Shown: positions 4,650 through 60,978 of the stretch, piece after piece
Layout of the letters: each line of letters begins with the position of its first letter
Numbering within the stretch: position 1 is the first letter of the stretch
From: Allomyces arbusculus
Taxonomy: Eukaryota > Blastocladiomycota > Blastocladiomycetes > Blastocladiales > Blastocladiaceae
Direction of reading: 5' to 3'
Assembly (NCBI GenBank): GCA_027604705.1
Contig: JADHYV010000025.1
Span: 124,001-188,000, forward strand
Length of the DNA: 64,000 nucleotides
Program-made: the position numbers and the translations under genes
Notes under the pieces: model-generated
Seen by the model: only the letters and a program-made list of their open reading frames with translations
Told to the model about the DNA's origin: nothing
The model's database searches: none

Positions 4650-7600
4650 CTACCCCGCTCCACCCCTCCCCGACCCGGCCGACGTCCCTCCATTCTCATC
4701 CCCCGTCGACACCTCCCCCACCGCATCCAAATGCGGCACAACAGCCCTCCCCGCGGCCCCCCGCGTCCGCGGCGGCGTCGGCGCCATCCCACGATCCAGG
4801 ACCCCGGCCGCAGCCGCGACCGTCATTCGCCGCCCCGCCGTCACTGACGGCGTATGCATATGGAACAGCGTGGCCGCCGACGCCGACGACGCGCGCGACC
4901 GCGAGGACAGTGGCGTGAGTGGCGGCAGCGGCAGTGCACCACCCGTCCCGCGAATCGGTGTGGACTCGACGACGAATGTCGGCGCATCAGATCGCGTCGT
5001 CGCGGACGGCGGGCCTGGCGGGGTCGGGAGCGATGCCGTGGCGGTGGCGTCGCCGCTCGGACGCCGCCGTGCGGCTGCGGGGGCGGGTAGCGCGAGGGTT
5101 GCGCGCGACGACGAGTCGAGCGAACTCATTGACGCGAATAGCGCCGCGGCCGCGGGGTTGCCCGGTGACGGGTGCCGCCGTGCGCCGCGGCGCGGGCCGA
5201 CCGCGCGGCGTGGGACCGCGACGGTGCCGTAGATCGGGTCGTCGACGACGGGTAAGTCGAGCACTTGCATTCGCGCAGCAGCAGCACGGCCCGCGTGGTG
5301 CAAGGTCGTGAGCGACGAGTTGACGGTGGGCGGGAGCGAAACAGTACTGAGTAAAGCCGTTGACAGCATTCCAGGAATCCGGCCGCCGTACGGTGTCGGA
5401 CGGCCGCTGCCGCTGGGAAGTGCGGACGATGATCCGCCGCCGGAAAAGGAAGTCGCGGTGGGCGATCCGAGACTGTTGGCCATGACGATTCCGGACATGT
5501 CGCTATTCGTCGGCCCACCCCAGGAGGGCAGTTCCTGCGAGTGGAAGAGCGTGCCGAACGTGTTGCGTCGCGCACGCGGCGGGACGGGCAGCCGCCAGTT
5601 GGCTAGTGCGTGCCCGACACTCGTCGTGCTTACGTCGGTCTCATCGGCGGCGGCACGGTCGGGTGGGGTCAGGTTAATCCGTGGGCGGTTGCTCTCGGAA
5701 TCCTCCTCGTGCTCGGGCGCCATATCGGTCGGGAACGACAATGCCGACCCGAGACTCGACGTTTCCATCCTCCCTCCCGCCGCGGCCGCAGCAGCCAGTG
5801 AACCCACTGGTGGTGCGCGCGATCGGGACGACGGCGTCCGTTGCACTTCTAGTGCGTGATCCGCGGGCAACCTCGGTGCCGGCGGTGGCGGAGAATCCGC
5901 CGCTGGCGCCGGTGACGGAGCAAACGCAACCCCCTCTTTCGCGAGCCCCTGCGGCGACAAAAGCCCGTCAGGCGCGCTTTTCCCGCTCGAAGTACTGAGA
6001 TTGCTCGACTTGCGCCGCAGCAGCGACACTGGTAATGACATCCTTGCAACCGACGCCGCGGCTGCGTCCCGCCCAACCACGGCCTGCCGCGCAGGGGCCG
6101 ACGCGCGATGCGGCACTCTCGCCGGCGCCGCATCGTCCGGGTCCACGAGTGCGACTGTGCTCGCGTTCTTGAGAATCAGTTTCCACCGTCGCGTTGCCGA
6201 CATGGGCTTCCCTGCGGAAGTGTCGCTATTCGACTCGACGGAAGCGGAAGCAGACGCGTCTGGCGCGTCGAGCGCCGACGGCGGAATCGATGACGTGCTC
6301 ACTGACGCCGCGGCGGCGGCGTGACCGCCGCCATGGATCAGTCCGCGCAGACTTACAAACGACGCCATGGCCGTGACCGTGTGCGGGATCGACGGCGCAG
6401 ACCGGCGCTTCTGGACGGTGCGTGGCGTCGGGACCAGGGCCACGGGCGCGTGCGCGCCATCGGCGCCGTTACCGCCGCGGGACGATGAGTGCGACGACGA
6501 CGAGACGCGGCTGGGCAGCGGCATGCGTCTTCCGACGTCCGGCGCGGTCGGGACCGGGTGTGGCGGACGGGATTCGGGCGGTAAGAGCAGGGCCTCGGCG
6601 TCGAGGGTCACCGATGCAGATTGCGGTAACGTGCGGTGCAGGCCGTCGCCGACGGTCGACGGCGTCGATGGGGCTGAATCAAACCGGTGCTTCTTGGCCT
6701 CGATGGGCGCGTGCGCTGTTGGGGGTTGAGTGCCCGTGGGGGTGGAGGTCGGGAGCGAGATGAACGCGGCGCGCCGACGGCGGCGCCAACACCGGACGAC
6801 GCAGAATGCGGCGATGAGCACAACGAGACCCCCGACCGCGGCAATGACAATGGTAGCCACGCCGAGACCCGAACTCGTGGGTGCAGTGCCCTTGGGGTCG
6901 GTCGGGTCGACGGGAATCGTGCCCTTGGCAGCCGCGGGCGGTGGCCACGCAGCAATGACCTTGGACGGCGATACGAGCAGCGCGGCACTGGAATTCACCA
7001 TCACGAGTCGCGCGACCCCCGCGCCGGATCCGGCACCCGCAGTCGGAACCGATGCGGCCCACGCGAGTTTCGACCAGTTGCGCGGGTACACACGCACCTG
7101 GCCCTGTTTCGGGGACAGCAAGGCGACGTGGTCTTTGTCTACCGCATAGACGCGGTCGTCGACTGTGCACGCGATACTTGTGGCCGCGCCCGCGCCGACG
7201 CGCACAGAGCTGCCGTCGCACATGACGAGCGTGTCGTCCCCAAGCAACCCGAGTGGAACGATTGCGCCCACGGATCTTGTCTCGTCAAGCCGCACCGTCG
7301 TGAGCGGTCCCGTCGTCCCGGTCGATGCGGCTGCGAGCGTCGTTGCGTTCGGCGGGAGACCGCGCACGCCGTGAATCGCGCCGTTGCCGATGAGGAACAC
7401 GGCCTGCGGCGGGGTCGCAAACAGCCACTGGTCAGCGACGCGCAAGTCTGTCGGCGGAGCGTACTGCGACGAAATGGGCAGCGGTGCAGCGACGCCCGGA
7501 ATTGCCGGAATCGACGTGACGGGTCCATCCAGCAGTTCGGCACCGTTGCGCTGCTGCAGGACGCGCAGCGGGTTAGGCACCGGGCGGTACAGGAAGGTCA

Positions 7601-8532
7601 TCTCGGGTACGCGCAACGGAAGGTTGCCGCACGCGAGAGATGCGGGCGAGAGCGGGTGAAGAACGTTGGGCGTGGTCGTCACGCACAGCGGGCCGTTCTG
7701 GCCGGGCCGTTGCCCGACGGCGTGCAGTGCGGATCCGTCTATGACGACTTCCAGCAGGGAGCCGGGTTCGAGTGCGATCGAGGCCGGCCACATGGTTGAC
7801 CACGAGGATCTCCCGTCGAGCGCGGCGAGAGTCGTGGCCATGACCACGAGCGACTTGTTGTTGGTCGTATCGGGCGCGGTTTGCTGCTCTTGTTGCTGTA
7901 CGAGCACGATCGCTCCGGTGTCGGTCAGTGCCCAATTAGTCGGGGCCGCGTTAGCCAGCAGCACGTCCTGCTGTGTCTGCCAGACGACAGAGACGCCGGG
8001 ATTGTCCCAGTCGCCGTGAACGCGGCTTGTAAACAAGGTCGTGCCCGCCTGGTACCCGAGCACGAGGTCGACGGCTGACGAGCCCGGATCGGGCGGGACG
8101 ACGAGCGGCGCGAGCGGGACGGCGCCGGATGGGACTCGCAGCGTCGAGAGCAGGGAATCCGTGGTGATATCTGTCGCATATTATGTGATGGTGAGCGACT
8201 CAACTTGGGACGAAAAGTAACCTATTCGCCGATGGCAGGAGAGTACCTATGGCGTGGCAGGGGCTCATAAGGGCAACGAGCGCAGCGACAAGCAATCCCG
8301 AGCGAAAGAGTATCCTCGTCGGGCACACGGATCGGGTGGAGAGCGGCGTAGAAGCACGTCGGATTCGTGAGCCGCAGTCGATGGTGCTCGACAATTTGCG
8401 TAGTTGGTGGTCGCCACGGTCGGGTGTGGTACTTGACGAACAACACCATGAACTCGCCGATGGCCTTTCTCGGTCGGCGTCGTGAACATCGTAGCCTGCA
8501 TAACCGGGTCTAAGCGCAGCGCACCGGTCCAT
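4650..8532 (-). CDS. Large single-pass (type I) membrane protein with long low-complexity cytosolic tail
   Basis: Two exons, 8532-8247 and 8170-4650, give 1,268 residues; the 76-nt intron has donor GTACTC. Exon 1 ends in a hydrophobic leader (LLVAALVALMSPCHA), probably a signal peptide. The in-frame ATG lies about 75 residues before it, so the true start may be a missed upstream exon. The lumenal part of about 430 residues is beta-rich with repeated hydrophobic-Asp patterns, like a propeller-type ectodomain. A transmembrane helix at about 531-554 (GLGVATIVIAAVGGLVVLIA) is followed by an RRRRR stop-transfer cluster. The remaining 700 residues are Ser/Pro/Ala-rich with SRSR and RRxS patterns, suiting a phosphorylated cytosolic tail. 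No family is recognised; a sensor or adhesion role is inference. A shorter 34-nt intron (donor GTTGAG) also preserves frame. Confidence 0.7.
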
Positions 8533-12057: not shown

Positions 12058-13378
<1,321 letters not shown>

Positions 13379-37482: not shown

Positions 37483-38800
37483 CTATTTGCATGCCTGCAT
37501 TCGGCGCTTCGCGCTGCGCGTGCGGCGTGCCGGACCATCATAACTCGGATCGAAAGTGGGCGCCGCGCTTTTCGTCCGCACCACCTCGCTCTCCACGCCC
37601 GCGACAGCGACCGCCTCCGTGCCCGTCTTCTTCTCCACCGTCACAGCTTTTTCCACAGCATCCTCCTCCTCTTCGGCCAAGTACCCGCTTGACCGCCGCT
37701 TCAGCCACACCGGCACGAGCGCCATCGCGGCCATAGCCGCCAACTTCGCCAACAGCGCCGGCTGCAAGATATCCTCGATCCGGTCCAGCGACGCCAAAAT
37801 CGCCCCCGCCTGCGTCGTCACAATATTGTACGGCGCGAGTCCGACCAGGACCGACACAAAAAAGTGCGGCACGAGCGGCACGCCAATCACGGGACTCGCT
37901 AGATTCAATAACCAGTTGGGCGTGAGCGGGAAAATGCGCAGGAAGAGCAGGTAGTAGAGAAGGTGGTTCTGCGCGTGTTCGCGGCGCACACGGGCCGCGA
38001 GTCGCGCGACCTTGCCATCGGGCGACCGGTCGATAAGGAAACGTTTGACCAAGGGAGCGCCGAATGCGCGCGAGAGGAGGTAGCAGCACGAGGCGCCGAC
38101 GGCGGTCAGGAAAATGGCGAGTGCGGAGCCCCATGTGCCGTAGAGCGAGCCGGCGACCAGGTTCTAATGAATTGGAGCGGCGGTGAGCTTGCGGCGTAGT
38201 ACGTTGGCTCGCGCGGGGCCGAAAACGAGTGCCGTACCAAGGCCATGGCGCCTGGGATCGAGAACGTCTGCTTGAACACGTAGAACGCCGTGAACAAACC
38301 CAGGACGTGCGCGAAATGCTCTTCCGAGTACTGCTGCAGGACCATGGCGAGCGCTGGTGGAGAACCAGACCGACTTGCTTCAGACTTGTCGTTCTTGAAC
38401 AATAATTCAGCGACGAACTTCTGAACACACCTTTGATGTCGTGCAGCGACGAGACTTGCAAATTTACCGTGACGCCCGAGTCAAGCGGCGGCAGCGCATG
38501 CGTGAGGGCGTAAATGCCGCCAATCGACGCGGCCATGATCACGCCATAGGCGCTCAGTCGCAGCAAGAGCATGGCAGTAGACGGTTCGCTCGTGGTCGTT
38601 TCGCCCTTGGTCGCTGATGATCCTGCATTGTCGTGCTCCTTGGAGTCATGACGGCGACGAGCTGGTGAACTTGCGGCGGGCATGAAGCCGGTGGTCGTTG
38701 CCGTGCTACTCGTCGAATCATTTCCGGTGCTGGTGCTCGAGCTGTCGGTCGCGGGCATCGCCACTTGCAATCGGCGGCTTGTTTTGGATCTTTTGGCCAT
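37483..38800 (-). CDS. VTT/DedA-superfamily membrane protein (TMEM41/Tvp38-like), copy 1
   Basis: Three exons (38800-38431, 38353-38238, 38163-37483) encode 388 residues; the introns are 77 and 74 nt. A Ser/Thr-rich cytosolic start precedes a first transmembrane helix (AYGVIMAASIGGIYALTHAL). The VTT core follows: FSIPGAMAL joined across intron 2 to NLVAGSLYGTWGSALAIFLT, then RIFPLTPNWLLNLASPVIGV, matching the conserved F-P-x-x-P-N-W-x-x-N element of DedA proteins. More hydrophobic helices and a charged tail end the protein. Relatives include TMEM41B and VMP1 lipid scramblases of the ER and yeast Tvp38 of the Golgi, so a membrane-lipid role is likely. A second member lies at 61.5 kb. Confidence 0.85.
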
Positions 38801-39143: not shown

Positions 39144-42100
39144 TCACTTCTCCTGCGCCGGCTTGCGCGTCAACAAATCCGCAATCCGCCCTGTCCCCTT
39201 CATCATCGCCGGGGCCGCCGGCGTGCACCGCGCCGCCGCCGAATCTTTCCCTTCGAGCGGCTGCGTCGATGTGCGCCGCGACACGGGCACGCTCGCCGAA
39301 ACCCCCGCGGGCGCGGCGTGCGGCGCCTCGACGTTGAACCGCGCCGCGGCCGCGCGGACTGACGAGACCGGCATCGCGCCGACCGCGTCCTCGGCAATCG
39401 CGGGTTCCGGAGGGGCCGACGTGGTCGACGAGGGGCCGAACGTGCGCGCCGAGGTCGTGCGGGTCGCGGTGGCCGACGGCACGCGGGACCGCGATGCTGA
39501 CGGGTCCGTGAAATTGGCAGAGGCGGCGGCAGCGGCGTTGGCCGCAGACGACGCGCGGATCGCGGTCACATCAGTCGCGGCGGCAGTGGCGGGGGCCGGG
39601 GTAGTCGGGCTGGCGCCTGCGCCCGCAGCGGCGCGCCGGGCCTTGCCGAGGAACAAGTTGCGCTTGAACCGGATCGCGGCGATCCCGACGGTCGCGGCTG
39701 TCTTGACGTGCATGCGCAGTGCCGCGGCCTCCGCGTGCCGCAAGACGTCGCGCACCGCCGTCATCAAATTCTGCGCGCAGACGACGAGTCCACGTTCCGC
39801 GTCGAGATCATTCGCGGGGGAACTGGCCTTGACCGACGCCAAGATCTTAAGTTGTTGCGCGAGCGTCGGGATCAAGTCGGCGGAACGCGCGAGCGCCGTG
39901 CGCAGCCGCTTGTCGGTGCATTGGTCGACGATTTGCCGCACGTGCTTGTCGAGCATCTGGCACAGTTGCACGACTTCGCGCGTGGACCCGAGGAGCGTGA
40001 GCTTGGCAGCTGGCGAGTCGAGTTGGTATTGTTCGGCGAGTTCGCGGAGCCGGGAGGAAATATCAGAGGCGGTGTGCACGACAGGGTTGGCCGCGCGCGA
40101 CCACCTGGACGTTTCCACGACGAGCTCCTGCGCGGCGGCCTGGTGGAGCGGGGTGGAGAAGAGTTAGCATCACAGACCAACTCACGACGAACTTGTCAGT
40201 ATCACGGACCTTGAGCGGGTTCGCCTGCGCCTCCTCGGGCGACAGAAGCTCTGGCGCGTCTTCCTCGACGACCACCACGTCCCCGGGCACCACCGGTACC
40301 TCCATGGTCAACTTCTCCACCACCTCCGTCACTTCCTCCACTCCACCGCCCGGCGCCGCCGCGGCCGCAACCACCTCCCGCGCGACCTCTGGCTCCGGGA
40401 CGCGCGGTACACTTGGCGCCGCCGACGCGGCCACATGTACCCCCTTCTCGTCACGAATCGCGTGCGAGACATCCTGGATGGCGGCGAGCACCGCGTTCGG
40501 GTCCTGGTCATCAGTGGCGGCCGTGGCCTGCGCAAGCCGTGTGACGTATTCGGCCGAAGACGAGTTGTCAGCCTCGCGCTTGACGGCGGCGACGAACCCG
40601 CGGAATGCCGCGGCGAGTGCGGCGACGTCGGAAGTGAGTGTCACGGCGCCGCGCGTCTTGCTGAGGTGCACTTGGTGCGCGAGCCGCTCGACCTTGGCCG
40701 CTAGTATCGGAGAGAGAGGAACCGGTTATGATCATCCAACTCAGCTTCATCCTCGTTGCAGGACCGCACGTACCGCTCGACGCGACCATCACCTCCGGCT
40801 CGTACCGCGCCACAACCACCTTCTCCTTGGCCCTGTCCAACGCCTTCGTCCACTCGCCCACCGCCATATCCAGGTACTCTCTCGCCGCTTCCCCGACCCC
40901 ACCCTCTGCAACCACCTCCGCCGCCGTGCCCACCTCATGCGCATGCGCCGCCAAATCGGCCGCCATGTCCGGACACCCTTCGGCGCGAACAACCCGGACC
41001 AGACCTTTCGCCGCGTCTCTGAACTCGGCGACCCCGGCCTTCGGGTTCTCCATTAGGCTCCGCGTCGCAACAGCCGCATTCGCCAGCGCATGTAGGGCGA
41101 CCCCCGCGCGCTCTCCGCGGAACGCCACGTCGGCTGCCTTGACCCGGTCCGCCACCGCCGTCGCAGCCGCAGCCAATTCCGTGAGCGTCGCGACGTTCGG
41201 TGCGGTCGGAAGGTGCAAAAGCACGGCAATCGAATCGAGCGCGCGGTCGGTGTCCGCGTCGAGGTGCACCCCACGGCGCGCGAGTTCGGAGCGCAGGGAC
41301 GTGAGTTCGTCGGCCGCACGTGGGGCCGTCGTGGGCCACGTGCCCGGGTTGGATGTAAGATCGGTGATGTGCGCGAGAGTTTGGTTGGCCAGGGCGGCGA
41401 TGGTCGCTGGGGTCGGTGACAACACGGTCGTGGTGGTCGTGGCGAGCGTCAAGTGCGACTGGCTCCGTGCGTGCGCGTCGATGGCGGTCTTGATCTGGTC
41501 AGCTGTGGCGGGTAAGGTGCCGGTGAGTTGCACCCGCGCGGTGGGCGACGGGGCCGTCGGGTCCGCCAAGGCCGCCGCGAGGGCGTCGAGCGTGCGCATT
41601 GCGTCGGCGTCCACGGCAACACCGCGTGTGGCAAGGGCGGTCCGCAGTGCCGCCAAAGTCTTGGCGACCCGCGGCGCGTCCGTCGCCCAGCTCTTGGGCG
41701 CTCTCGCTGCGAGGTCCGTGACTTCAGCGACGACTTGGTCAATGAGCGCCTTGATCTCGGCCGGCGCGAGATTCGCGGCGCTCGCGCCCTTGGCGGCCAA
41801 TCGGTTCGCCTTTTCGGCCGCATTCACTTGATCGACGGCGGTCAGCGTCATGGCCAGCAGTCCCGCGGCATCGGCCGAATCGAGCGTCGTCCCCGCCAGG
41901 ACCAACTGGATCTTGTCGAGCGCGGCGTTTGTCGCGTCGTCGAGCGGGACCCCGCGCGCATGAATGTCCTGCATGAGCGCGGCCAGTTCCTCGGCGGCGC
42001 GCGCACCCGCAGCATTGGGCCACGCGACGTCGGCAAGGGCCACGGCCTCGGCGATGCGCGAGACGAGTCGGTCAGTCGGGGACAGCACGGCGCGTGGGGT

Positions 42101-43604
42101 GGACAGGTTGTCCTTTGGCGCGTTCTTGATTGCGTCGGCGGCGTGAATCGCCAGGTTCTGCACGGCCTCGGGTGTCGTAGGGGGTTCCGGTTGCGCGAGA
42201 CAGTCGATCAGCTCCGTCAACGCATCGGCGGTGTCAGTATCCAACGACACGTCACGGTCGGCCACCTCGTCCCGGATGGCCTGCACGAGCGCGCGCGCCT
42301 GCTTTGCGCGCTCGGTCCACTCTTCCGCCGACGCGCCCACGGCCGCAGCCATTCGCGCCGGCAGTTGCGCAACTAGAGCATCGAGTACTGGCGCAGCCGC
42401 CGCTTTCCGCGCATCCGCGTCGGCATCGCGCACAATCTCCTCCGCGGCCTCAACCAACGCCGTCTGTTCTTCGTCGGTCAGCGGGACCGGTGCGCACAGC
42501 AGGTCCTCGACGCGCTTCACCACTGCCTCGTACCGTGCCGTCCCCCCAGACAAGCCGTGCCGCAAGGCATCCACCTGGTTCCGTGCGTGGGCGGCGGCGG
42601 TCGTCCACGCAGCGCGGTCCCCGTCGCGCGCGGCGTTCGCGGCGGCACGTACGCGGTCGCGCAGCTCGTGCGCGTCTTCAGCCGCGGCCGGTTCCCACGC
42701 GACGTTGGCCGCTTCAACCTCTTCGTCGGCCTCGTCGAGGACGTCCATGGCGGAGCGCTGCACGTCGCGCGCGATGCCCGCACACGCGCGCGCAAACGCG
42801 CCGCCGTGCCGCTGCAACAGGTGCCGTGTCCCGACGACACTCCCGCCGCCATTCTCCCCGCCCGCCGCGGCCAAGATCACGCGGGTCGCAGCAACCGCGG
42901 CGGTAATTGCCTGCTCGAACCGCGCGAGATGTCCCGCCAGCGACTGCGCGATCGGTGGATGGAGCAGTTCCGGGACGCGCGCGTGGACGAGATGAGCCAG
43001 AAACACGGACCGCTGCGCGTGCCGCTTGATGTGCGTGACGAGGTCCGGCGCGGTCGGGGTTGTGGCGACTTGCGCGGCGAGCTGCGTCAGCCGTAGAGGT
43101 AAGGCGCGCGCGACGACGACGATTTTCTGAATTTCCGACTCGTCATAGGTGTTGAGGATCGCTTGCGTGCCCGCGAAGATCCCGCGCGTCGCGTCAACAA
43201 GGTGATTCCGTCCCGTCGGGCTCAGAGGGTCCGCGGCGAGTTGCGAGGCGACAGAGACGAGTTGTGCGGCGGCGGAGCGGACTAGACAAGGTCGGGAGGG
43301 GTGAGATACGTGATAGACAAATGTTCCCAACAAAAAACGTACCCTGCTTGCACCCATCGGTCATGGCGGCCTGCAGCTTGGCCACATCTATGACGCCGCC
43401 TGTCTCAATGGCGAGCGCCTCGGCGTCGAGCAGCGACTCGCCGGCCGACGCGAGCATGTCGACATTGACGGCGATCTGCTGCGCGTACTCACGCAGGTCC
43501 GGGATCGGCGTCGACCCGAGCTCGGCCTGGGCCGTGATGACAATCAGCTGCGCGACCGCGTCGGAGATCGGGTCGAGCAGGGCCTTGGTCGTGCTGGTGA
43601 GCAT
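39144..43604 (-). CDS. VCL: Vinculin (actin-adhesion linker), full length
   Basis: Four exons (43604-43343, 43281-40774, 40700-40186, 40139-39144) encode 1,426 residues; the introns are 61, 73 and 46 nt. The N-terminus reads like a vinculin head: ALLDPISDAVAQLIVI, IPDLREYAQQIAVNVDMLAS, then ATRGIFAGTQAILNTYDESE and IQKIVVVARALPLRLTQLA. A long all-helical middle of repeated bundles follows (D2-D4 equivalent). A Pro/Val/Glu-rich hinge near 1040-1085 precedes the tail from residue 1096: AAAQELVVETSRWS, QCTDKRLRTALARSADLIPT and LAQQLKILASVKA (about 1169-1200), the most diagnostic vinculin-tail text. The last 170 residues are Ala/Ser/Thr-rich and have no metazoan counterpart. Vinculin links membrane adhesions to F-actin. 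Alpha-catenin is the alternative, but the tail favours vinculin. Confidence 0.93.
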
Positions 43605-44315: not shown

Positions 44316-46152
44316 ATGACCCGCCCATCACCGGCACCACGACTGCTCCGCGCGCTCGCCGCGCTCGCGACCCTGCTGGCCCTGCTCGTCGCCCGCGCCA
44401 ACGCCTTTGGCACGCAGTGCGGCCAAGACAGCCCCATCCTGCGCAAGTCCGCGCCCGCCGGCTTGCTGCACCTGCACGAAGACTGGGCCGCGGTCGCTGA
44501 GCACGCGCGAATCCCAAGGCTCGCGCCGAACCGCGACGCCAACGGCACGGTCCTCCCGCGGCACAAGACGCGTATCGCGTTCTTAGGCGACCAAGGGCTC
44601 CGACCGGACTCGCTCGCGCTGCTCAAGCAAATCAAGGACTGGAAACCGCACGCGGTCGTGCACTTGGGCGACTTTGTACGGTCCTTCTCTCCCTTGATCG
44701 GTTGTGATCGTGATCGCCATGCTGACGGCTCAACAATTTGATCAGGACTACCGCGACAACCCCGCCGCTTTCGATGCGCAAATTGACTCGGTCTTTGGCG
44801 CGCACTTCCCATACCTCGCGGCCATCGGGAACCACGACCTCGTCCGATGGACCTCCGACCCCGCGCTCGGCGCCGGGTACCGGGACCTCCTCGCCGCGCG
44901 CCTGCGCCGAATCCCGCGGCTCGCCGACGTGCACTGCGACGCGCCGACGCGCGATATGGGCGAACATATGGTCTGCACGATCCGCGGCGTGCAAGTGCAC
45001 CTGTCGGGTGTTGGCACGTACGGCGCGAAACACGCGTCGCACCTCTCCAAGTCGTTGTCCAACTCGAACCACGCCTGGCGCGTCTGCGGCTGGCACAAGA
45101 ACCAGCGCGCCTACCAAAGTGGTACGAAGCCGGATGAAACGGGATACAGGGTCTACGACACGTGTCGCGCGCATGGGGCCGTCGTCGCGACCGCACACGA
45201 GCACGCGTATTCGCGCACGGCATTGATGGGGTCGTTTGAGAAATTCGAAATGATGAACGCGACCGCGGCCGAGCACGACCAACTCGACGTGCGTCCCGGG
45301 TCGACGTTCGCGTTCGTCACGGGGCTCGGCGGCGAGTCCGTGCGGAGTTTGTCGCGCAAATTGCCCGACCGCCCGTGGCTCGTCCGCGCCGCGGGCGCGG
45401 ACCAGAGCGCGCGCGCCGCCGCGGTCCTGTGCGAGTTTTACCCGGGCGACGACCCGTTCGAGGCCACGTGCGAGGTGTGCGATGCGGTTAGGGACGAGGA
45501 GACCGTGTATGACCAGTGGAGAATGACGACGGTCGCGCCGCAGCCGAAAGTCGCGGTCGCCGCATTGGCCAAGGACAAGACGTGTGTCCAGACGGTCGAT
45601 CTCGCGATGCGGCCGATCAAGTCCGCGACCCGGCCGGCGCACTTGGCGAACACGTACGGGTACTTGCCGCTCGCCGCGGACGGGACCGAGTTCACGTTCT
45701 CCGCGCGCGGCAACTTGCCCGCGCGTGGGCGCGTCGTCGCCGCGCACTTGCAAGTGATGGGCGCGACCGGCGCCGACGCCGATACGGCGTCCCCGCTCCG
45801 CGTCGATTTGCGGCTGCAGAAGCCGACGGTTCCGGCGCGCCTCACGATCCAGGCCGTGCGGCACTGGTACCAGGCGGTCATGCGCGACCGGTCCGGCGAC
45901 GCGGTGGATGCCCACGGCGCTCGCGTGCTGGCGACGCGCGAGTGGACGGCCGACGAGTGGGAGAAGCACGAGGTGTGGGTGTCCCCCAACCTGGTGCCTG
46001 AATCGGGGATCGATTTGGCCGAATTTGCGGGCGCGATGCGCGTGCGTGTCGCAGCGAGCGGCGAGGAGGAGCAGACGCGGTGGGTGTTCACGGGACAAGG
46101 CGACGCGTGCTTGGCGCCGTCGCTCATGCTGCATATTGATACGTGCGCGTGA
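44316..46152 (+). CDS. Secreted calcineurin-like metallophosphoesterase (purple-acid-phosphatase-type)
   Basis: Two exons, 44316-44675 and 44746-46152, give 588 residues; the 70-nt intron has donor GTACGG. A signal peptide opens the protein (LLRALAALATLLALLVARAN). The metal-binding motifs are in the canonical order: FLGDQG, then HLGDF joined across the intron to DYRDNP (GDxDY), then GNHDL, GWHKNQ and the terminal histidine pair AHEHAYSR. These residues bind the two metal ions of this superfamily. A C-terminal beta-rich domain of about 250 residues follows (starting near TTVAPQPKVAVAALA), perhaps carbohydrate- or wall-binding. The substrate (phosphomonoester or diester) is unknown. The gene is head-to-head with vinculin and convergent with SNF8, 174 bp apart. 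Confidence 0.9.
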
Positions 46153-46326: not shown

Positions 46327-47321
46327 CTAGGTGATCAGCTCGGCCGAGAACCAGAAATACGCGGGCGCGTCGCCCTGCATGTCGACCCACACAATCCCAT
46401 CGGCCACGAGAAGATCCTACACCAAACCGCCAAAAGCATGAGTTCGCGGTCCCAGCTCGCTTCTCCACCCGAGTTCGAGACGTACCAGGCACCGCTGTGC
46501 GCGATCGCTGGTCCACCCGGTGGTCCTCGCCACGTCCTCGGCCGTGATCGGCCTGACCCCCGCGGCATCCCCCAACATCCGCGTGACGCGATCCGCATCC
46601 AGGTTCAGTTCCCTCGGCACGGCGGCAATCACCGTCGTTGCCCCGTTCGCCGCAGGCAAGTCGAGGAGCGCGAACCCGCCGCCGAGCGGCGCAAGCAATT
46701 TGACAGCGCGCGTCACGTCGTCTCTACACTCCAACCGCGTCATTATCCCCCTCGCTTCCGCACAGAACTGGCGAGCGAGCGTACTCAGAAACCGCCGCCG
46801 CCGCACTCGCGCGTTCGTGATTCAACGCCTTGACCGCGTCGGAGAGCGGGACGAGCGGCCCCCACCGGTCACGTAACGCGATGCACAACTCCATGACACG
46901 CACGCCGAGCTCATAGTAGAACCCGCCGACACCAAGGAGGTCGCTCCAGACGCCCTTGCTCGCTACACATACGCGTCAGTCTCCAATCACCGCAAAATGC
47001 GATGGGTGCGGCGTACACGTCAACGGGTCGACGCCCATGCCCGCACACATCTGTGCAAACTGGCGCCGGAACGCCGGGTTGCGCGCAATCTCGGCGCGGT
47101 GCTTGGTCACAAACAGTTCGAGCGAGGATTTGAACTGCGCCATTTGGTCTTGCAGTTGGGCGAGTTGCGCGGCGGCGAGACGGCCGCCCATGTGCCGAAA
47201 TTGCTCCTGTCGACGAGCATCGTGGTCAGCGCGTGCGCGAGCAAAGAGAACGTGGGAGCGGCGAGCGTGCCTTCTCGCGCGCCCGTTGCTGCAGGCCGGC
47301 AATCCCGACTTGGCGTCGCAT
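46327..47321 (-). CDS. SNF8: Snf8/Vps22, ESCRT-II subunit
   Basis: ESCRT-II sorts ubiquitinated cargo into endosomal vesicles. Five exons (47321-47271, 47206-47017, 46962-46785, 46723-46486, 46416-46327) encode 248 residues, the family length. M-R-R-Q-V-G-I-A-G-L-Q-Q-R-A opens the protein and KHRAEIARNPAFRRQFAQMC plus GVDPL mark the N-terminal helices. KGVWSDLLGVGGFYYELGV is the most conserved family block. Two winged-helix domains follow (DDVTRAVKLLAPLGGGFALL, then ITAEDVARTTGWTSDRAQR) and the end is DGIVWVDMQGDAPAYFWFS. Four introns of 54-69 nt are restored in phase. Intron 1 begins with GC instead of GT. Confidence 0.95.
47207..47270 (-). other. GC-AG intron in SNF8
   Basis: Family alignment by eye requires the join QQRAREK / EQFRHMGG. 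The 64-nt sequence removed begins GCACGC and ends GTCGACAG, with a CTGAC branch-like motif near its 3' end. No GT donor gives the right phase. Confidence 0.6.
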
Positions 47322-59906: not shown

Positions 59907-60978
59907 TTAGTAGAGGCGCTGCGGCTTGCCCATGGTGCTCTTGACGTAGAGCGACTTGACGTTCTGCCAGTTCTTCTTGAGCAGCGACACAAGGAAGTTG
60001 ACCGCCAGCATGATGTTCGCGACGAGCTGGTCCTCGGTCATGGCGACGTGGCCAACGGCGACACCAAGGCACAGCACCTTCTTGAGCTGGAACTTGATCG
60101 TCGAGCGCAGCTCATCGGCCTTGACGGTGATGTCGTCCGAGTGCGAGATGGGCGTCGGGAACTTACCGGCCTTGTGGAGACCGGGGCCGAGAAGACGCGG
60201 GATCTGCTTGATCAGCGCCTCCGAAGCCAGGAAGGCATCGTACTTCTTGGCCAGCTTCTTGATCAGCTTCTTGTTCTTGTTGAGCTTCTTGAGGTCCTCA
60301 ACCGACATGTACTCGAGGCCGACCTTCTTGGCCGCGTCGCAGTGGAAGGCGTCGCCGAGAATGCACACCTTCATCTTCGGGCGCGGGATGTTGGGGAGCC
60401 TGTTGGTGATGGGGGAATATCAGTCAGTTTGCAAGCAATTCGAGTTAGGAAAACGACGCTCGGCAGTAATTTCGGCGGTCAAGATTGCAATCACGGCGAT
60501 GGCGACGAGACGACGGTAACAAACGATTTCAGCACAGCGGGATTCCCACGAGCGGTGAAACGGTGCGAGTGAGCGTCACGAGCGCAAACTCGCCGTGAGA
60601 CCGCAACACAGCCGTGTCGAGGAGAATCCAGGCAAACGAGCTGTCGTCGAGTCGACGTCATCGCGGCCGTTCGATTGCGGGTCGTCGCTGGAACCGCCGT
60701 CGCCGTCGCCACCATTTGCTGGTCGTGCACCGTCGTCGCCAAATCGCATAATCGCCGTCGAGACCGCCGAAAAATCGTCGCGAGAGCCGTGTTGCCGCAA
60801 GCTGAACGTGGGGCACATACTTGACAACGCCCGAGAAACGCTTGTCGCGCTGCGGGTCGTAGTTCTTGAGGCCGATTTGCAGCTCAACCGTCTCGGTGAA
60901 GTTGCGCTTCTTCTCCTCCGAGGCGGCGAGCACGGTGCGAACCGTCTCGCGGCAGGATGCCGTGCTGACCTTGCTCAT
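59907..60978 (-). CDS. RPL10A: 60S ribosomal protein L10a (uL1)
   Basis: This is the L1-stalk protein of the large ribosomal subunit. Exons 60978-60821 and 60399-59907 encode 216 residues, the normal eukaryotic length. M-S-K-V-S-T opens the protein. [20 protein letters not shown] and [21 protein letters not shown] (restored across the intron) are uL1 hallmarks. They are followed by [34 protein letters not shown] and the end [22 protein letters not shown]. The 421-nt intron (donor GTATGT, acceptor ACAG) is the longest in the window. Introns of ribosomal-protein genes often host regulatory RNA or snoRNAs, but I see no clear box C/D pair here. Confidence 0.97.

Follow-up and report, generated by a model that had tools for sequence, protein, structure and literature searches.

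Vinculin-family proteins have been described in cells that lack integrins, both among zoosporic fungi and in Dictyostelium. The excerpted text of a report on Orpinomyces (PMC5042518) describes vinculin, talin, paxillin and alpha-actinin in this fungus, and lists its vinculin (KX463730) next to a Spizellomyces protein (XP_016608717); thus, from those excerpts, vinculin in a zoosporic fungus is already known. The genomes compared there include those of Allomyces, Spizellomyces and Batrachochytrium. Homologues of focal-adhesion proteins are placed in the basal fungal phyla and not in Dikarya, which agrees with the statement, made in a first-pass annotation of the DNA studied here, that vinculin is absent from most well-known fungi. 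Integrin, FAK and Src are stated in the same excerpts to be invariably missing from basal fungi, and all basal fungi in which scaffolding homologues are clear are said to have a flagellated stage. Transcription of the Orpinomyces genes was seen during active zoosporogenesis and was greatest in germinating spores, above that in sporangia; vinculin transcription is lower, not higher, on an insoluble matrix. Our searches of the vinculin literature for Blastocladiomycota, or for Spizellomyces together with talin, found PMC5042518 alone.

Dictyostelium is likewise described as being without integrins (excerpts of PMC9197732). Loss of its vinculin/alpha-catenin-like protein ctnnA/vinA leads to a loss of talin tension, and vinculin showed no specific enrichment with Dictyostelium talin A, according to the part of PMC12686525 available. 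We describe here a vinculin-family gene of Allomyces, found in a stretch of DNA of 64,000 nucleotides (the window), and set it beside these proteins, comparing its product by sequence with the vinculins of animals.

Results

An intact gene with a conserved head, D4 domain and tail

The vinculin-family gene occupies positions 39144-43604 of the minus strand and consists of four exons (43604-43343, 43281-40774, 40700-40186 and 40139-39144), separated by introns of 61, 73 and 46 bp, all three of which have GT...AG ends. The reading frame starts with an ATG at 43604 and finishes with a stop codon ending at 39144, and the joined exons encode 1,426 amino acids with no internal stops. Support for the start codon comes from the alignment of residue 3 of the product with human metavinculin residue 6. 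The spliced product matched the Pfam Vinculin family (PF01044) in two stretches, with an E value of 2.9e-37 and a score of 128.9 bits (cutoff 38.1), which is the significant match that the first-pass annotation had proposed to look for. When the unspliced frames were tested alone, two of the four matched the family, with E values of 2.4e-12 and 3.2e-20; those of exons 1 and 3 had no Pfam Vinculin match. The spliced model, the Pfam match, PDB matches to head and tail and codon usage concur that the gene is intact, complete and genuine. Indeed, the full-length vinculin gene of 1,426 residues that had been called on the minus strand stands, and the four motifs quoted for it are all present in the spliced product.

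The conserved parts of the protein begin with a D1-like N-terminal head (approximately residues 3-250; 42794-43598, minus strand, including intron 1 at 43282-43342), in which residues 3-233 align with residues 6-222 of human metavinculin (63.8 bits). The second part of the head (residues 251-398; 42350-42793, minus strand) is defined by the alignment with sponge vinculin, in which residues 3-389 pair with sponge residues 7-375, and is predicted to be helical from about residue 286. The talin-site position A50 of vinculin aligns with Asn47 of the Allomyces product in the PDB-search alignment. Ile at A50 blocks talin binding, according to excerpts of PMC7039207; since the position is Asn in the Allomyces product, talin binding cannot be assumed.

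The D4-like domain (approximately residues 843-1010; 40441-41017, minus strand, including intron 2 at 40701-40773) was delimited from the sponge alignment and a three-way alignment with sponge and human vinculin, in which the D4 loop K-x-E-x-(D/E)-N-S is kept in all three. It is followed by an acidic hinge with a net charge of -11 (approximately residues 1011-1090; 40201-40440, minus strand), delimited by motif scan and composition. In the proline-rich hinge of animal vinculin, FPPPP is an EVH1 ligand that recruits Ena/VASP; it is a ligand motif and not a family-defining domain. A motif scan for EVH1-binding proline motifs found neither [FLWY]PPPP nor [FLWY]PxPP across the entire Allomyces protein, and the animal route of Ena/VASP recruitment is therefore unlikely to operate.

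The vinculin tail (approximately residues 1091-1253; 39666-40200, minus strand, including intron 3 at 40140-40185) is delimited by PF01044, PDB matches and alignment. It contains QCTDKRLRT and IPTLAQQLKILASVKA, and the PF01044 match extends to position 838 of the 852 in the profile. The tail charge cluster reads DKRLR here, DKRIR in human and DKRAK in sponge vinculin; by sequence, the T12 charge cluster of head-tail autoinhibition is thus present in the Allomyces product. In fly vinculin, changing DRRIR to AAAIA (the T12 change) reduced autoinhibition, as described in excerpts of PMC5201009.

Beyond residue 1253 lies a C-terminal extension of 173 residues (residues 1254-1426; 39147-39665, minus strand) that is rich in Ala, Ser, Thr and Pro and has a net charge of +11; by codon usage, the frame of the gene scores highest of the six there. 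It begins with KRNLFLGKARR, a putative counterpart of the basic arm at the end of animal vinculin tails. The C-terminal extension singled out as new in the first-pass annotation is therefore real, but the biggest departure from animal vinculin is an insertion of four repeats, described below.

Because the head, D4 domain and tail are kept in order, the product is most likely an autoinhibited linker. The head would bind a membrane-side partner, probably talin; partner binding would free the tail, which could then bind F-actin and acidic lipids. Since integrin is not expected in such a fungus, this link would serve integrin-independent roles, and candidates include integrin-independent attachment, anchoring of the basal body, and coupling of the cortex to actin at germination or at hyphal tips. 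The retained adhesion system that had been proposed is not shown by these data, given that the excerpts of PMC5042518 describe basal fungi as lacking integrin, FAK and Src, and the transcription of vinculin in Orpinomyces as lower on an insoluble matrix. A narrower role is possible, although we think it the less likely outcome: the actin-linker chemistry might be kept but be used only at the basal body or flagellum or in zoospore formation, and not in adhesion. The flagellated stage of all scaffolding-bearing basal fungi and the high transcription of the Orpinomyces genes in zoosporogenesis, with vinculin lower on insoluble matrix, point in this direction (excerpts of PMC5042518). However, this argument is drawn by analogy from another fungus, and in that fungus transcription peaks in germinating spores, above sporangia (same excerpts). 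We retain the broader reading of an integrin-independent actin linker.

The product resembles vinculin more than alpha-catenin

A search of PDB sequences with the product returned 42 distinct sequences at E≤0.01, 35 of which are named vinculin, metavinculin, VIN1 or VCL; one more is an unnamed product that gave a vinculin-head match with the same scores, and six are alpha-catenins or HMP-1. The top scores were those of sponge VIN1 (118.4 bits) and of human metavinculin (7ktt) and vinculin (6upw), with 114.2 bits each, while vinculin isoform 1 scored 107.8 bits. The matches to sponge vinculin and human metavinculin cover both head and tail. The best match over head and tail was not to an alpha-catenin; the alpha-catenins and HMP-1 matched the tail only, at 19-31.6 bits, and their heads had no match at E≤0.01. 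Similarly, over the D4 domain and tail, the product (residues 851-1240) aligns with residues 424-823 of sponge vinculin at 76.3 bits and the vinculin-tail chains match the tail at 61-66 bits, compared to at most 31.6 bits for alpha-catenin. Because the alpha-catenins are weaker and match in the tail only, the product is vinculin-like rather than alpha-catenin-like among its solved relatives.

We also predicted the structure of the product of exon 2 (834 residues) from the single sequence. The model had a mean pLDDT of 63.6 and a pTM of 0.32, and 267 residues, most of them in the head part, were below 50. In a Foldseek search, three of the 132 matches had E≤0.001, namely metavinculin (2.7e-4), alpha-catenin (3.0e-4) and metavinculin (8.7e-4); the next were vinculin (2.7e-3) and sponge vinculin (1.7e-2). 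The TM-scores of these matches were only 0.12-0.17, with rmsd of 35-40 Å, and hence the model shows a local bundle resemblance to vinculin and alpha-catenin and no superposable whole.

The protein could instead be of the alpha-catenin type, or could descend from the common ancestor of alpha-catenin and vinculin, and so not be vinculin proper. The six alpha-catenin tails among the 42 PDB matches, the second rank of a full-length alpha-catenin in the fold search and the description of Dictyostelium ctnnA/vinA as a proposed precursor of both (excerpts of PMC12686525) are consistent with such an origin, but the scores of alpha-catenins over the tail are so far below the head-and-tail matches of sponge vinculin (118 bits) and human metavinculin (114 bits) that we consider it improbable.

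The gene is native to its contig

The codon usage of the vinculin gene closely follows that of seven other genes in the window, pooled (2,361 codons), with a correlation of r=0.935 and with GC3 of 0.82 for the vinculin gene and 0.83 for the pooled genes. When each of the seven genes was compared with the other six, r was 0.80-0.95, and the vinculin sequence read in its five other frames gave r=0.21-0.73. Taken part by part, the frame of the gene was the best of six in five of six parts. The exception is the hinge, in which an antisense frame scores 0.434 compared to 0.242 for the frame of the gene, so that the case for coding there depends on the frame being open and its flanks conserved. The similarity in codon usage to the window genes indicates that the vinculin gene is native.

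The surrounding genes are ordinary eukaryotic ones. Family matches in the window include a short-chain dehydrogenase, F-box, GAPDH, mevalonate-kinase-like, Tim44, TPR and acyltransferase proteins, as well as WD40, CPSF2, bZIP, VTT, DEAD-box helicase, mitochondrial carrier and ribosomal uL1 proteins; several other frames in the window had no family match. Codon usage and these neighbours make contamination within the contig very unlikely. The host is probably an early-branching fungus, with which the short introns are in keeping. The three short introns and the ordinary eukaryotic neighbours fit the claim that the gene lies in a fungal genome, and a fungal host is plausible but unproven.

We regard it as very improbable that the gene is a contaminant or was recently transferred from an animal or amoeba. 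The neighbouring GAPDH does score higher in the PDB against chains that we presume to be animal (545.9 bits) than against the ‘GAPDH 3’ chains (485 bits), which we take to be yeast; the GAPDH and uL1 matches are, however, not decisive on the host, as they come from tables without organism names. Against a foreign origin stand the codon usage shared with seven other window genes and the fact that similarity to animal vinculins is distant only. Scans of viral contigs and prokaryote genomes, collections without animals or amoebae in which only close relatives are detected, found no close relative of the vinculin gene.

Several other features of the window were noted. A gene for a VTT-domain membrane protein (37483-38163, minus strand; Pfam VTT_dom, E=1.3e-11) lies just downstream of the vinculin gene and shares its strand. 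The divergent neighbour (44343-46152, plus strand) is metallophosphoesterase-like by eye (GDQGL, HLGD and GNHD, in two frames with a likely intron between), and the larger of its two frames (44698-46152) had no Pfam or NCBIfam match at 1e-3. A fragment at 46420-46821 (minus strand) has a weak EAP30/Vps36 match (E=1.5e-4, under the family cutoff), and an open frame of 1,176 amino acids (4650-8180, minus strand) matches nothing in Pfam at 0.01 or in NCBIfam at 0.001. The GAPDH gene lies at 12266-13375 (plus strand) and the ribosomal uL1 gene at 59910-60419 (minus strand); the best PDB match of the latter is a chain named uL1B (9rvu, 275.6 bits).

Four tandem repeats separate the head from the D4 domain

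Between the head and D4 alignments, the Allomyces product has approximately 460 residues where sponge vinculin has approximately 50. Residues 399-842 consist of four diverged tandem repeats of 100-119 residues each, missed in the first-pass annotation, which explain most of this excess. All four lie on the minus strand and are delimited by self-comparison and alignment: R1 (residues 399-498; 42050-42349), R2 (residues 499-606; 41726-42049), R3 (residues 607-723; 41375-41725) and R4 (residues 724-842; 41018-41374). For R3 and R4, a helical structure model adds to the evidence.

The self-comparison used windows of 40 residues and a reporting level of 45, with 20 shuffles that gave maxima of 37-58. 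The best self-match, R3 with R4, scored 104 at an offset of 117 residues, and R2 with R4 scored 73 at an offset of 227. The matches of R1 with R3 (57), R1 with R4 (55) and R2 with R3 (54) are each within the shuffle range, yet fall in the same register; R1 with R2 was below the reporting level. Nine invariant columns, one of them a Trp, are common to R1-R4. The repeats score 118-124 bits against their own profile, which holds by construction.

We considered residues 301-398 as a fifth repeat. By whole-sequence score against the R1-R4 profile they rank first of 501 (with 500 shuffles), at 8.9 compared to 8.6 bits, whereas by single-domain score all four displayed shuffles are better, and hhalign gives a probability of 3.5%. 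With a score barely above shuffles, a fifth repeat is unproven.

In the AlphaFold model of R3 and R4, for which R1 and R2 formed the sole other alignment row, mean pLDDT was 74.4 and pTM 0.43. The repeats are predicted to be helical, each with helices of approximately 24, 15 and 42-49 residues, and a 20-residue helix joins the two. None of the 91 Foldseek matches of this model reached E≤0.001, and vinculin heads appear at E≥1.4 among the best 50 of the 91. Likewise, the R1-R4 profile gave 12 PDB matches at E values of 0.05-3, none of them vinculin. The middle repeats of animal-type vinculin are approximately 112 residues long. Comparison of R1-R4 with three animal vinculin repeat pieces gave an hhalign probability of 0.24% over nine columns, and six of 100 column shuffles scored higher. 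The first Pfam Vinculin stretch reaches approximately residue 475, and thus into R1.

The repeats might instead be an artefact of the gene model, arising from two genes or from an intron left in place, as the want of a PDB relative by sequence and the stretch left uncovered by the two Pfam matches (approximately residues 476-869) might suggest. We regard this as extremely improbable, because a single in-frame exon of 2,508 bp spans part of the head, R1-R4 and the start of D4, and over the repeats the frame of the gene outscores the other five in codon usage.

With the helical insertion, head and tail would be joined by a longer arm, which may have gained bundles that bind ligands or yield to force. 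One specific proposal, which we put forward as rather doubtful, is that the arm of a fungal vinculin acquired an array of helical bundles peculiar to its lineage, four or perhaps five in number, that are new and do not stem from the repeats of animal vinculin. In a link between actin and membrane that is free of integrin, this array would serve as a spacer able to extend or to bind ligands. A repeat insertion in fungal vinculins is not mentioned in the excerpts returned by our vinculin literature searches, which were not aimed at it.

Discussion

We favour, with some confidence, the reading that the gene is an intact member of the vinculin family, native to a fungus that diverged early and is probably zoosporic, and that its product would be an autoinhibited, integrin-independent actin linker with a longer arm. 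Since the presence of vinculin in basal fungi is already published, the interest of one more case is limited; the unusual part is the four-repeat architecture. The vinculin family in organisms without integrin shows an actin-linker role before, or apart from, animal adhesion. With the clasp residues kept, the animal hinge motif missing and a four-repeat arm present, the Allomyces product provides a testable case for separating the core of the protein from its added parts.

Animal vinculin, as represented by human vinculin and metavinculin and by sponge VIN1 (PDB 6bfi), has the same order of head, D4 domain and tail. It has in common with the Allomyces product the tail core C-x-DKR-x-(R/K)-T ... 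IPT(I/L)xxQLKIL(A/S)(S/T)VKA and the D4 loop. The Allomyces product differs in length (1,426 amino acids, compared to 846 for the sponge chain and 1,066 for the vinculin isoform 1 chain), in its added repeats and C-terminal extension, and in having no FPPPP. Alpha-catenin and C. elegans HMP-1 belong to the same superfamily, but their likeness is far weaker and confined to the tail. Dictyostelium ctnnA/vinA is likewise a vinculin-family protein of an integrin-free cell, needed for talin tension, and is likened here by its description in the excerpts of PMC12686525. The proteins of Orpinomyces and Spizellomyces likewise place Pfam Vinculin in a flagellated fungus said to be without integrin (excerpts of PMC5042518).
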